The position numbers were made by a program, and so were the translations under genes. Shown here piece by piece: positions 20,500 to 32,173 of a DNA stretch of 33,240 nucleotides (position 1 is its first letter; every line of letters begins with the position of its first letter). Origin of the DNA: Micropruina sp. (GTDB lineage Bacteria > Actinomycetota > Actinomycetes > Propionibacteriales > Propionibacteriaceae); the NCBI RefSeq assembly GCF_027492755.1, contig NZ_JAPUED010000178.1, positions 11,421 to 44,660 of the forward strand, read 5' to 3'. A model generated the notes under the pieces. The model worked only from the letters and a program-made list of their open reading frames with translations. It ran no database searches and was not told where the DNA came from.

Positions 20500-23814
<3,315 letters not shown>

Positions 23815-23866: not shown

Positions 23867-24637
23867 TCAGGACGCGAGCTCGCCGAGGTAGAACCGGGTC
23901 AGCGTGCTTTCGGGCTTGCTCTGACCTGAGTGCTGGGCGTTGAAAGCGGCGCTGGCGTCGGTGCCGCACAGCGGGGTGATCCGCTCGGGGCCGCCGGGGT
24001 GCTGGCTGATCCAGTCGGTCAGGTTGTAGACGCCACCGTTGATCGCGGCCCAGCAGTCGCCCGCCGTGTTGTGCTGCTGCACCTGGGCCAGGGTGTAGCT
24101 CTGCTGGGTGCTCGCGGACGCCGAACTGCTCGGCGAGGCGTCCCCGGTGGCGGACGGCTGGGCGCTGGCCGAGGCTGTCGGACCGGCGGACGTCGGCGTC
24201 ACCCCGGTGCCCGACCAGACCGCGGTGGCGCCGCTGTGCCCGACGACCACCGTCAGCGCCACGCTGACCGCCGCCAGCAGTGCGGTGAGCATGCCGAGGC
24301 CCTTGACCAGGTTGTCGGGCTCGGCCTTGCCGCGCTGCAGGAAGTACCACACGGCTGCGGCGACCAGGGTGGCGGTGGCGACCCGCGGCAGCCACTCGCC
24401 CCAGGCCATGTGCGCGGCAGGCGTGCCGACCTGGTCGGCGAGGGCGTGCCCGGACAGCATCGCCACCCAGGCGGCTGCGGTGCCGGCGACCATGCCCAGC
24501 AGCGCTAGGCCCGCGTAGCCGCGGCGGAGCCGTCCGAACACGATGCAGGCGATCAGTCCCAGTGCGGAGAGCGGCAGCAGCACCACCACCGCGTGCACGA
24601 CCAGGGGGTGCAGCGGGAGGCCGAAGAAGTCGTACAC
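23867..24637 (-). CDS. DUF2231 membrane domain fused to cytochrome b5-like heme domain
   Basis: The 256-residue protein starts at GTG (24637) with GAGGAG 8 nt upstream. Residues 1-140 are a four-helix DUF2231-type domain ([25 protein letters not shown]10 and H15 are typical). A Ser/Ala/Thr/Pro linker (about 145-180) leads to an extracytoplasmic cytochrome b5-like domain (181-256). The heme ligands are visible: SQHPGG (H213) and FNAQH (H236). DCW (C195) and PLCGT (C224) could form a disulfide or be a paralogue signature, since both recur in the lipoprotein encoded at 25364-25717. It probably carries electrons at the outer membrane face. It follows the rhomboid gene on the same strand. Confidence 0.82.
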
Positions 24638-24678
24638 CGGTCAAGCTCCTCGGTCGGCTGGGGGTGCCAGCTGGACTA

Positions 24679-24690
24679 TTGACGTGTCAA
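24679..24690 (-). promoter_or_regulatory. palindrome upstream of the DUF2231-cytochrome b5 gene
   Basis: TTGACGTGTCAA (24679-24690) has perfect 5-bp arms around GT, and on the minus strand its half TTGACA is a consensus -35. It lies about 42 nt before the GTG at 24637 and 44 nt past the rhomboid stop. I do not see a good -10 at 17 nt, so an operator is as likely as a promoter. Confidence 0.4.
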
Positions 24691-24733
24691 CAATACCGGT
24701 CGGCGGCTCCCACCCCTGTGATGAACCTGTGAG

Positions 24734-25333
24734 TCAGCCGTGAGCACGCGCCGTCCGACGCCGATGCAACGACCAGGCGGCCAGGACGCCACCGATCGCG
24801 CCGCCCAGATGTGCCTGCCAGGACACCCCTGCCTGAGTGGGGAAGACGCCCCAGAGAATGCCGCCGTAGACGACGAAGATGACCACCGCGAGCAGGATCT
24901 GCTTGCCGTTGCGGGCGAAGAGTCCACGGGTGAGCAGGTAGGTGAGCCAGCCGAAGATCAGCCCGCTGGCGCCGATGGTGATCGTGTTCGGTGCGCTCAG
25001 CAGCCAGGCCGACAACCCGCTGACCACCACCGACCACAGTGTGGAGAGCACCGCCCGGACGGCGCCGCCGATCATCACCAGAAAGCCCAGCACCGCGAAC
25101 GGCAGCGTGTTGGCGCTCAGGTGCGCCCAGTCGGCGTGCAGCCATGGCGCGAGAAAGATCGACGGCAACGACCAGACCTGCCACGAGTGGATTCCCAGGG
25201 CGTCCAGCGAGCCGCGGGTGATCTGGTCGACCAGTTCGATCAGCCACAGCAGTGCCACCCCGATCCCGACCACGATTGCGGCCTGCCGGGGTGCCACCGG
25301 CGCGTTCGACCGGACCGCGAGAGAACTGCTCAT
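24734..25333 (-). CDS. rhomboid-family intramembrane serine protease
   Basis: The 199-residue protein has six predicted helices. The rhomboid hallmarks are present: HADWAHLSANTLPFAVLG (66-83, the His...His...Asn stretch), TIGASGLIFGWLTYLL with nucleophile Ser123 in GASG, and SWQAHLGGAIGG with catalytic His175. It would cleave membrane proteins within or near the bilayer. The N-terminus is short, without an extra domain. CAGACT (25345-25340) ends 6 nt before the ATG, so it may be leaderless. It lies 30 nt downstream of the cytochrome b5 lipoprotein gene and 96 nt upstream of the DUF2231-cytochrome b5 gene, all on one strand, so the three may be functionally linked. Confidence 0.92.
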   Translation of the reverse strand: MSSSLAVRSNAPVAPRQAAIVVGIGVALLWLIELVDQITRGSLDALGIHSWQVWSLPSIFLAPWLHADWAHLSANTLPFAVLGFLVMIGGAVRAVLSTLWSVVVSGLSAWLLSAPNTITIGASGLIFGWLTYLLTRGLFARNGKQILLAVVIFVVYGGILWGVFPTQAGVSWQAHLGGAIGGVLAAWSLHRRRTARAHG

Positions 25334-25363
25334 GAAGCCAGTCTGCCCAGTCCGGCCAAGCCG

Positions 25364-25717
25364 TCAGTCGAGCAGCGCGCCGATCCGGAAGGAAGCCAGT
25401 TGGGTGTTGGGCTTCTCCTGATCTCCGTGCTGGCCGTGGAACGCGGAGGTGGCGTTCGTGCCGCACAAAGGAAGGATCTTGTCCGGGCCGCCGGGATGCC
25501 GGCTGATCCACGAGGTGACGTCGTACACGCTGTCGTCGACCGCCACCCAGCAGTCCTGCTGCGTGTTGTGCTGCGCAACGTCGGCCATCCGGTAGCCGTC
25601 CGAGGCCGATCCGGTGGGCGCGGCGTCCACGGACGTCGAAGGGGCAGGGCTGCCGCCGCACGCGGTCAGCAGCACGATCGTCAACGGTGCCAGCAGTGCG
25701 CCGGTGCGTAGTTTCAC
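25364..25717 (-). CDS. cytochrome b5-like heme lipoprotein
   Basis: I start this at GTG 25717 (117 residues) because TAGGCT (25730-25725) ends exactly 7 nt before it; an ATG at 25741 would lie upstream of the promoter. The lipobox LTAC lipidates Cys20, so the protein is anchored outside the cell. A Ser/Ala/Thr linker leads to the heme domain (about 42-117) with SRHPGG (H74) and FHGQH (H97) as likely axial ligands. The pair of cysteines C56 (DCW) and C85 (PLCGT) matches the paralogue at 23867-24637, and the C-terminal FRIGALLD parallels FYLGELAS there. The two domains are clearly duplicates. Electron partner unknown. Confidence 0.82.
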   Translation of the reverse strand: MKLRTGALLAPLTIVLLTACGGSPAPSTSVDAAPTGSASDGYRMADVAQHNTQQDCWVAVDDSVYDVTSWISRHPGGPDKILPLCGTNATSAFHGQHGDQEKPNTQLASFRIGALLD

Positions 25718-30068: not shown

Positions 30069-30872
30069 GTGCACGCGGATATCGGGATCATCGGCGGATC
30101 GGGCTTCTACGACTTCTTCGCCGGCGCCGACACGGTGGAGATCGACACCCCGTTCGGCGAACCGAGCGCCCCGCTGGCGATCGGCGAAGTGGCCGGACGG
30201 CGGGTCGCCTTCCTGCCCCGGCACGGCTTCCGGCATCAGTTCCCGCCGCACCGGGTGAACTACCGGGCCAACCTGTGGGCGCTGCGTTCGGTCGGCGTCC
30301 GGCAGGTGCTGGCCCCGTGCGCGGTCGGCGGGCTGCGACCCGAGCTGGCCCCGGGGACGTTCGTGGTTCCCGACCAGGTGGTCGACCGGACCTGGGGCCG
30401 CGCGCACACCGTCTGGGACGCCGTCGGCCCGGTCGTGCACGTCTCGTTCGCCGACCCGTACTGTCCGCGCGGCCGGACGGCCCTGCTTGCTGCCGGTGAG
30501 CCGGTTGTCGACCGCGGCACGTTGGTGGTGATCAACGGTCCGCGGTTCTCCTCGCGCGCCGAATCGCGCTGGCACGCCGCGGCCGGCTGGTCGGTGGTCG
30601 GCATGACCGGCATGCCCGAGGCGTCCGTGGCGCGCGAACTCGCGATGTGTTTCAGCACCGTCTGCATGGTCACCGACGCGGACGCCGGCGTGGAGGGGCC
30701 GGGGGTGTCGCACGCCGAGGTGATGCAGGTCTTCGCCGGCAATATCGAGCGGCTGAAGGCGATGCTGGTTCGAGTGATCGCGGCGTTGCCCGAACCGGAG
30801 CCGGACGAGACGGCGACCTGCTCCTGCCGCCGTGCGCTGGATGGCCAGCGACTGCCGTTCGAGCTGCCCTGA
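30069..30872 (+). CDS. mtnP: methylthioadenosine phosphorylase-like purine nucleoside phosphorylase
   Basis: The 267-residue enzyme belongs to the PNP/MTAP family, which splits 5'-methylthioadenosine or a purine nucleoside with phosphate. The N-terminal GIIGGSGFY binds phosphate; FLPRHGFRHQFPPHRVNYRANLWALRSVGV is the conserved PNP/MTAP block; GGLRPELAPGTFVVPDQVVDRT follows. VVGMTGMPEASVARELAMCFSTVCMVTDADAG carries the base-contacting Asp residues seen in 6-aminopurine-using MTAPs. The substrate could instead be inosine or guanosine, so the symbol is provisional. The GTG start follows TAGAGT by 6 nt. A short Cys-containing tail (CSCRR) ends the protein. Its stop overlaps the hemW start (TGATG), so the two are translationally coupled. 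Confidence 0.82.
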   Translation: MHADIGIIGGSGFYDFFAGADTVEIDTPFGEPSAPLAIGEVAGRRVAFLPRHGFRHQFPPHRVNYRANLWALRSVGVRQVLAPCAVGGLRPELAPGTFVVPDQVVDRTWGRAHTVWDAVGPVVHVSFADPYCPRGRTALLAAGEPVVDRGTLVVINGPRFSSRAESRWHAAAGWSVVGMTGMPEASVARELAMCFSTVCMVTDADAGVEGPGVSHAEVMQVFAGNIERLKAMLVRVIAALPEPEPDETATCSCRRALDGQRLPFELP

Positions 30873-32173
30873 TGCCCTCCGCGCTGCCCGCCGGGGATCC
30901 GGCGCCCGCCGACGGCTCCCTCCCCGCGTCGGCACTCACTGAACTGGGCGATGAACCCGTCTCGCTGTATCTGCATGTGCCGTTCTGTGCGACGCGCTGC
31001 GGCTACTGCGACTTCAACACCTACACCTCGGCGGAACTGGGCTCGGCGCCCGGTTCGTCCCGTCAGGCCTTCCTGGACGCCACACAGGCCGAGCTCGCGC
31101 TGGCCGCCGGAGTGCTGGGCGAGCGTCGGGTCGACACCGTCTTCGTCGGCGGCGGCACCCCGACCCTGCTCGCAGCCGACGAACTGGTCGGCCTGCTGGC
31201 TGCCGCCCGGCAGCATTTCCCCTTGTCGGACGACGCTGAGGTGACCACCGAATGCAATCCCGAATCGGTGGATGCCGGCTACCTGGAGGCGTTGGTCGCC
31301 GGTGGCTTCAACCGGATCTCGTTCGGCATGCAGTCGGCCCGTGGTCACGTGCTGCGGGTATTGGAGCGCAGCCACACGCCCGGACGCGTCGCGGACGTCG
31401 TCGGTTGGGCGCGTGCGGCCGGCTTCGGCTCGGTCAGCCTCGACCTGATCTACGGCACGCCGGGGGAGTCGCTGGACGACTGGCGGGCCTCCCTGGAGAC
31501 CGCGCTGGCCTTGGCGCCCGACCATGTCTCGGCCTACGCGCTGATCGTGGAGGAGGGCACCCGGCTGGCCGCGCAGATCCGCCGCGGCGACCTGCCGGCG
31601 CCGATCGACGACCTGCAGGCCGACTGCTATGAGTTGGCGGACGACCTGCTGTCGGCGTCCGGCATGGGCTGGTACGAGCTGAGCAACTGGAGCCGGCCGG
31701 GTCATCAGTGCCGGCACAACCTGGCGTACTGGCGGGGTGCGTCCTGGTGGGGCGTCGGACCGGGTGCGCATTCGCACGTCGGCGGCGTCCGGTGGTGGAA
31801 CGTGAAGCATCCGCGGCGCTACAGCGCGGTACTGGCGCAGGGCCACAGCCCGGCCGCCGCCCGTGAGCTGCTGGACGCCGACGCTCGCCGGGTCGAACGG
31901 GTGCTGCTGGAGTCCCGGTTGGGCGAGGGGCTGGAGCTGAGCGTGCTCACCGCGTCCGAGCGGGCACGGGTGCCGGATCTGCTCGCGCGCGGCCTGATCG
32001 AGGTGGGCTCCGACGACCGCTGGTCGAGCCAGCCCGAGGTCAACAACCTCCGGTCGAGCGTGCCCGACCACCGCTGGTCGAGCTTGTCGAGACCCCTTGC
32101 CGACGCCCGCCTACGCCTCACCCGCAAGGGCCGGCTGCTCGCCGACGCAGTCGTCCGCGACCTCCTGGACTAG
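30872..32173 (+). CDS. hemW: HemW, radical-SAM heme chaperone
   Basis: The 433-residue protein begins at the ATG inside TGATG, overlapping the previous stop. The radical SAM cluster motif is FCATRCGYCDF (C39, C43, C46). Next come VGGGTPTLL, ECNPESV, NRISFGMQS and SLDLIYGTPGES, then the C-terminal HemN-like domain with YELSNWSRPGHQCRHNLAYWRG. HemW binds heme and delivers it to respiratory enzymes; it lacks the coproporphyrinogen dehydrogenase activity of HemN. Near the end, about 30 residues (RWSSQPEVNNLRSSVPDHRWSSLSRPLAD) are encoded by copies of the window's dispersed repeat, inserted in frame before the usual RLRLTRKGRLLADAVV ending. The conserved core is intact. Confidence 0.92.
   Translation: MPSALPAGDPAPADGSLPASALTELGDEPVSLYLHVPFCATRCGYCDFNTYTSAELGSAPGSSRQAFLDATQAELALAAGVLGERRVDTVFVGGGTPTLLAADELVGLLAAARQHFPLSDDAEVTTECNPESVDAGYLEALVAGGFNRISFGMQSARGHVLRVLERSHTPGRVADVVGWARAAGFGSVSLDLIYGTPGESLDDWRASLETALALAPDHVSAYALIVEEGTRLAAQIRRGDLPAPIDDLQADCYELADDLLSASGMGWYELSNWSRPGHQCRHNLAYWRGASWWGVGPGAHSHVGGVRWWNVKHPRRYSAVLAQGHSPAAARELLDADARRVERVLLESRLGEGLELSVLTASERARVPDLLARGLIEVGSDDRWSSQPEVNNLRSSVPDHRWSSLSRPLADARLRLTRKGRLLADAVVRDLLD
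32019..32094 (+). repeat. dispersed repeat copies inside the hemW coding sequence
   Basis: CCGCTGGTCGAGC (about 32021), a degenerate copy CCGGTCGAGCG (about 32050) and a full copy CCGCTGGTCGAGCTTGTCGA then GACC (32071-32094) lie in the hemW frame. They read RWSS, RSS and RWSSLSRP. The full copy matches the GTCGAG variant of the intergenic repeat. Confidence 0.75.

Follow-up and report, generated by a model that had tools for sequence, protein, structure and literature searches.

A gene for a putative rhomboid protease lies between two genes for extracytoplasmic cytochrome b5-like proteins in Micropruina sp., and this arrangement raises the question of whether the protease acts on one of its neighbors or whether the two cytochromes serve a membrane electron-transfer pathway beside which the protease merely happens to lie. 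We analyzed the locus within a stretch of 33,240 nucleotides, hereafter the window, together with its counterparts in related genomes.

Gene layout of the locus

Exploring the window, we found the arrangement that a preliminary description had given, namely three same-strand genes encoding a b5 lipoprotein (LIP), a rhomboid (RHO) and a fusion of DUF2231 with a b5 domain (FUS), and all three families scored over their Pfam cut-offs (Table 1). FUS matched DUF2231 (PF09990) with 45.6 bits (cut-off 26.4) and Cyt-b5 (PF00173) with 73.9 bits (cut-off 23.7), RHO matched Rhomboid (PF01694) with 89.2 bits (cut-off 22.6), and LIP, which has a GTG start and was scanned from its second codon, matched Cyt-b5 with 74.0 bits. 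The lipobox-like motif of LIP was identified by eye. The genes are closely spaced in the order LIP, RHO, FUS, with gaps of 30 bp between LIP and RHO and 96 bp between RHO and FUS, and converge on a gene that we take to be lepA; the radical SAM gene of the window is presumably hemW-like. Apart from the b5 domains of LIP and FUS, no Cyt-b5 domain was found in this genome, whose assembly is 84.9% complete.

Table 1. Features of the window, with coordinates counted from its first nucleotide.
Feature	Coordinates	Strand	Description
LIP	25364..25717	(-)	lipoprotein-type signal, lipobox LLTAC, short Ser/Ala/Thr linker, cytochrome b5 domain (HPGG, QH, two Cys)
RHO	24734..25333	(-)	rhomboid; Ser in GASG, His in AHLGG
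FUS	23867..24637	(-)	four-helix DUF2231 domain, Ser/Ala/Thr linker, cytochrome b5 domain at C-terminus
lepA (presumed)	21985..23814	(+)	converges on FUS; landmark beside RHO in several b5-less loci of other genera
radical SAM gene	30647..32173	(+)	Pfam Radical_SAM 85.4 bits; second landmark of RHO neighborhood

The two cytochrome b5 domains

Both b5 domains carry the HPGG motif, a second His (QH) and two Cys (DCW and PLCGT), as described earlier, and 40 of 79 residues are identical between them. In alignment A2, which combines the window with 70 of 81 detected fusion frames, the heme ligands H213 and H236 of FUS as well as C195 and C224 are kept in all 71 rows, and the ligands are nearly invariant across the fusion alignments rather than absent from most orthologues. 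The modelled FUS b5 domain superimposed on a cytochrome b5 structure (1icc_C) with a VIA Z of 14.5 over 78 residues at 1.1 A. These motifs suggest that both domains bind heme. A tree built from 38 b5 domains did not resolve the backbone, but in it the LIPs of three Micropruina genomes clustered (88/41), as did the FUS domains of the same three genomes (95/89). Given that LIPs and FUS domains form separate groups, the split between them predates these Micropruina species, and the earlier proposal that one copy is a duplicate of the other was not confirmed for this locus.

Predicted fold and orientation and the conserved histidines of FUS

The AlphaFold2 model of FUS, built on the 71-row alignment (mean pLDDT 88.3), predicts four long helices (residues 9-33, 35-70, 74-101 and 109-144) joined to the b5 domain by a low-confidence linker; modelled alone, the DUF2231 domain reached a mean pLDDT of 94.4. 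Membrane orientation can be read by the positive-inside rule, and the mean numbers of Lys plus Arg (0.03 at the N-terminus, 2.85 in loop 1, 0.90 in loop 2 and 3.59 in loop 3) predict that FUS has both its termini outside. H10 and H15 are placed where helix 1 begins, H76 where helix 3 begins and H134 close to where helix 4 ends; with this orientation all four His are predicted to lie toward the outer face.

To what extent these His are conserved depends on how the sequences were gathered. The 80 fusion loci from GTDB genomes were collected with LP[LVA]HPL[VIF]VH as the seed pattern, which contains H10 and H15; the conservation of these two His in A2 is therefore circular, whereas alignment A1 (23 rows) was not so chosen and provides a fair test. 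In A1, H10 and H76 are present in 23 of 23 rows and H15 and H134 in 22 of 23. H76 is also invariant in A2, where position 134 is His in 65 rows and Asp or Glu in the other 6. The sole exception in A1, a second copy in one genome (L046), has lost H15, H134, H213 and H236 together. Such joint loss of ligands is expected if the DUF2231 and b5 domains act as one unit, and suggests that the two domains of the fusion work together. The L046 copy (L046:7199-7993; G129:C2) still matches both Pfam families, and an intact FUS copy is located elsewhere in that genome.

Distribution of the rhomboid and b5 genes

RHO is a putative intramembrane protease, judging by its profile match and its catalytic residues; S123 of the GxSG motif and H175 are kept in all 17 aligned RHO sequences. 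Searching its sequence against the PDB gave no match at E <= 0.01. Assignment of RHO as a rhombosortase (NCBIfam TIGR03902) was rejected, its score of 39.2 bits being below the equivalog cut-off of 84.

Of six Micropruina genomes searched, four hold RHO, and in all four a b5 gene lies beside it. The window and M. glycogenica (L129) share the arrangement LIP-RHO-FUS. Micropruina sp. KQZ13P-5 (L031, L076) carries RHO-FUS with LIP 3.6 kb off, beyond an inserted stretch that includes MFS-like and MarR-like genes (named by eye); in Micropruina SSC1 (L077), RHO comes after a pair of FUS genes, one of which encodes two b5 domains. The other two genomes, which are less clean assemblies, gave no RHO match, and one of them only a partial b5 match. 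The adjacency has thus outlived rearrangement within the genus, which is not predicted if RHO is a pure bystander.

Beyond Micropruina the picture differs. Among 196 genomes of the order sample, Cyt-b5 was found in 23, the DUF2231-b5 fusion in 20 (23 genes) and a RHO orthologue in 149. Sixteen of the 20 fusion genomes hold a RHO orthologue; the two genes are adjacent in two of these, both Micropruina, and apart in the remaining 14, and a related genus contributes four genomes in which the fusion occurs without the RHO orthologue. Occurrence of RHO and b5 was independent both in the order sample (Fisher p = 0.80) and in the 75 genomes of the family sample, where 17 of the 22 b5-bearing genomes and 41 of the other 53 have RHO (Fisher p = 1.0). 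A RHO-like gene was detected in four of the 80 fusion loci, three from Micropruina and one (L149) from another lineage. The rhomboid-b5 adjacency for which the preliminary description sought conservation in related genomes is hence genus-specific, and a conserved rhomboid-b5 module was discarded, as neither adjacency nor co-occurrence holds beyond Micropruina.

Two single cases were recorded at other fusion loci. The rhomboid at L149 lies 1.8 kb from the fusion on the opposite strand, and at L034 (7190-8002) a rhomboid-like frame with DUF6576, devoid of GxSG, ends 16 bp from the converging end of FUS.

The neighborhood of RHO in other genera points to its history. Among 35 fetched RHO loci outside Micropruina, nine gave tblastn matches to lepA and none gave a match to FUS or LIP; a radical SAM gene adjoins RHO in L065, L068, L069 and L071. 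In one of these genomes (G101), a Thioredoxin/DsbA-like protein is encoded between lepA and RHO (L065:7093-7896). Since relatives without b5 genes at this place also have RHO close to lepA, the b5 genes probably came to adjoin RHO in the Micropruina line. The protease gene is most likely no more than an old neighbor, and its link with the cytochromes is probably a matter of local history.

The suggested cleavage of FUS by RHO

The preliminary description had also suggested that the DUF2231 fusion is the substrate of the rhomboid. According to a study of Shigella (PMC7232013), known rhomboids tend to cut proteins with a periplasmic N-terminus and a cytosolic C-terminus (type I or III). The loop charges predict that helix 4 of FUS, which precedes the linker, runs from inside to outside, opposite to this rule, and LIP has no membrane helix at all. 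Helices 1 and 3 are predicted to have the permitted orientation, but a cut there would leave the b5 domain tethered. With these two helices so oriented, quality control of FUS by RHO is conceivable, and the same study describes Shigella rhomboids as removing orphan subunits of redox complexes (PMC7232013). Rhomboid effects on respiratory-chain proteins have been suggested for Corynebacterium (PMC8899591).

We therefore weighed an explanation in which RHO either cuts FUS at or near the linker and so frees the b5 domain, or clears FUS that has remained unassembled. The intact catalytic Ser and His of RHO and the persistence of a b5 gene next to RHO in every RHO-bearing Micropruina, even after the rearrangement in SSC1, are in its favor. 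Given the helix 4 orientation, the helix-free LIP, the separation of the two genes in 14 of 14 other genomes holding both and the four fusion genomes devoid of RHO, we judge this explanation improbable, and the idea of FUS as a rhomboid substrate unlikely.

DUF2231 joined to other redox domains

In the phylum sample of 149 genomes, 64 have DUF2231. We scanned 65 DUF2231 proteins (taken from 30 listed loci and from 36 frames picked mainly by length, with L174 and L176 dropped as being in the wrong frame and the window added) and found a Rieske domain in 22, a cupredoxin domain in one and Cyt-b5 in two, including that of the window; as the sample is enriched in long frames, the 22 of 65 give no estimate of frequency. 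The Rieske fusions (L186-L207 and L211) have the Rieske Cys-His motifs in place, and at L210 (1422-2741) a cupredoxin-like domain is fused to DUF2231. H10 and G63 are invariant in all 65 proteins, while 38 of them have Asp and 12 have His at position 15. A His where helix 3 begins also looks general in this wider set, in an alignment that is shifted there and gives no count.

Additional b5 domains recur next to the fusion. DUF2231-b5-b5 proteins are encoded in Kineosporia (L112, L131) as well as in Micropruina SSC1, and at L099 (6588-7067) and L109 (6525-7055) a secreted b5 gene directly follows FUS. RHO was not found in the stretch at L112, L131, L099 or L109. The extra b5 outside Micropruina thus occurs without RHO, indicating that the recurring partner of FUS is a further b5 domain and not the rhomboid.

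Across the 80 fusion loci, 62 of which have more than 2.5 kb on both sides and many of which have flanks ending at contig ends, no redox gene was a conserved neighbor of FUS. The only recurring neighbor was a response regulator, in eight of the 80 loci (one of them Pfam-named); in L081 and the seven other loci it lies less than 5 kb from FUS, mostly on the opposite strand. Heme-copper oxidase was not linked to b5 in the family sample, being present in 17 of 22 genomes with b5, a count that includes one very weak match (G050) and one lower-scoring match (G164), and in 39 of 53 others. Neither comparison revealed an electron donor or acceptor, and this counts against an electron-carrier role. 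Of the 5.39 million papers searched, a single one names DUF2231, and we found nothing joining b5 with rhomboid and actinobacteria, b5 with Micropruina, or cytochrome b558 with Ectothiorhodospira.

What DUF2231 does in the fusion is the point on which the remaining explanations part. It may be a membrane anchor and nothing else, FUS and LIP being differently anchored b5 carriers that are served by another membrane donor, and its His being structural or metal-binding. The replacement of H134 by Asp or Glu in the six fusion rows and the Asp at position 15 elsewhere, as at a metal or proton site, agree with this, as does the finding that the b5 domain is anchored or secreted differently in other lineages (L055, L056, L057 and L039). 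A fold search with the complete FUS model yielded b5 structures as well as helical bundles. DUF2231 alone, also in line with an anchor, gave no solved redox fold above helical-bundle chance (Foldseek, best E 0.17), its matches at the generic helical-bundle level including cytochrome bd, oxidase subunit III and CcmC. A mere anchor leaves unexplained why H10 is invariant across DUF2231, why the domain has been fused repeatedly to three kinds of redox domain and why L046 lost the ligands of both its domains together, and we regard this explanation as doubtful.

A second possibility is that the b5 domains deal with heme itself, binding it or handing it on in capture, storage or delivery, and not with electrons. 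The proteins are extracytoplasmic and paired, one tethered and one lipid-held, and a radical SAM gene, presumably of the hemW kind, lies in the neighborhood; CcmC, which handles heme, was listed by Foldseek at an E of 0.98, that is, at chance level. Two axial His, which both b5 domains keep, are typical of stable electron carriers, and the Rieske and cupredoxin domains that partner DUF2231 elsewhere carry no heme. Heme handling thus appears highly improbable.

A proposed electron-carrier pair

Together, the conserved ligands and Cys of the b5 domains, the DUF2231 His, the Rieske and cupredoxin fusions, the repeated occurrence of additional b5 domains and the paralogue L046, with ligands lost in both domains, support the other suggestion of the preliminary description, a membrane electron-transfer module, and make electron transfer the likely role of FUS and LIP. 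We lean toward an explanation in which the two proteins form an extracytoplasmic pair of b-type electron carriers with a redox or quinol site in DUF2231, RHO being an older bystander. The four-helix DUF2231 domain would be embedded in the membrane, its N- and C-terminus both facing out, and close to the outer face the conserved His would form a redox or quinol site. This site would exchange electrons with the b5 domain, which would be stabilized by a disulfide and tethered on the flexible linker, and LIP, as a second, mobile carrier held by its lipid, would pass electrons between FUS and an extracytoplasmic partner. RHO would be an older resident of the lepA-radical SAM neighborhood that the b5 genes joined in the Micropruina ancestor; it would share transcription with them at most, and the pair would not need it. 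A heme site in DUF2231 is not fixed by these data, as H134 is exchanged for Asp or Glu in six of 71 rows and only H10 and G63 are invariant in the wider set, where Asp prevails at position 15. The lack of a fold match to solved redox proteins above chance also speaks against the redox site; an electron- or quinol-handling role of DUF2231 itself is something we infer from its His and its partners.

A broader proposal, which we offer as speculative, is that DUF2231 represents an unrecognized membrane redox module, a small four-helix unit that would bind quinol or heme at the outer face and combine with b5, Rieske or cupredoxin domains as interchangeable electron carriers. FUS and LIP would then be its b5 branch, a wire from quinol to the outside that is extended by extra b5 domains. 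DUF2231 being widespread and scarcely described, its repeated redox fusions offer a concrete and testable function, and DUF2231 as a redox module is the general lead from this locus, beyond the eye-catching rhomboid link.

Comparison with known systems

RHO belongs to the same Pfam family as the bacterial rhomboids GlpG, Rhom7 of Shigella and Cg2767 of Corynebacterium and has the Ser and His in place; set beside these, it has a b5 link that was seen only within Micropruina. The b5 domain of FUS shares its fold with cytochrome b558 of Ectothiorhodospira vacuolata, a prokaryotic cytochrome b5 (1cxy; VIA Z 14.1, 1.5 A, 78 residues), and both of its Cys align with the DCW and WCG positions of 1cxy, as in a two-cysteine b558-type domain. 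Assuming that the Cys pair of the 1cxy type forms a disulfide, one is predicted in the b5 domain of FUS as well. The 1cxy record is a single domain that has neither DUF2231 nor a lipid anchor. The DUF2231-Rieske and DUF2231-cupredoxin proteins of Actinomycetota differ from FUS in their redox cofactor and in having mostly Asp in place of H15, and the Rieske type has an extra N-terminal stretch; they are built on the same plan as FUS, with a four-helix DUF2231 domain, the invariant H10 and a redox domain at the C-terminus.
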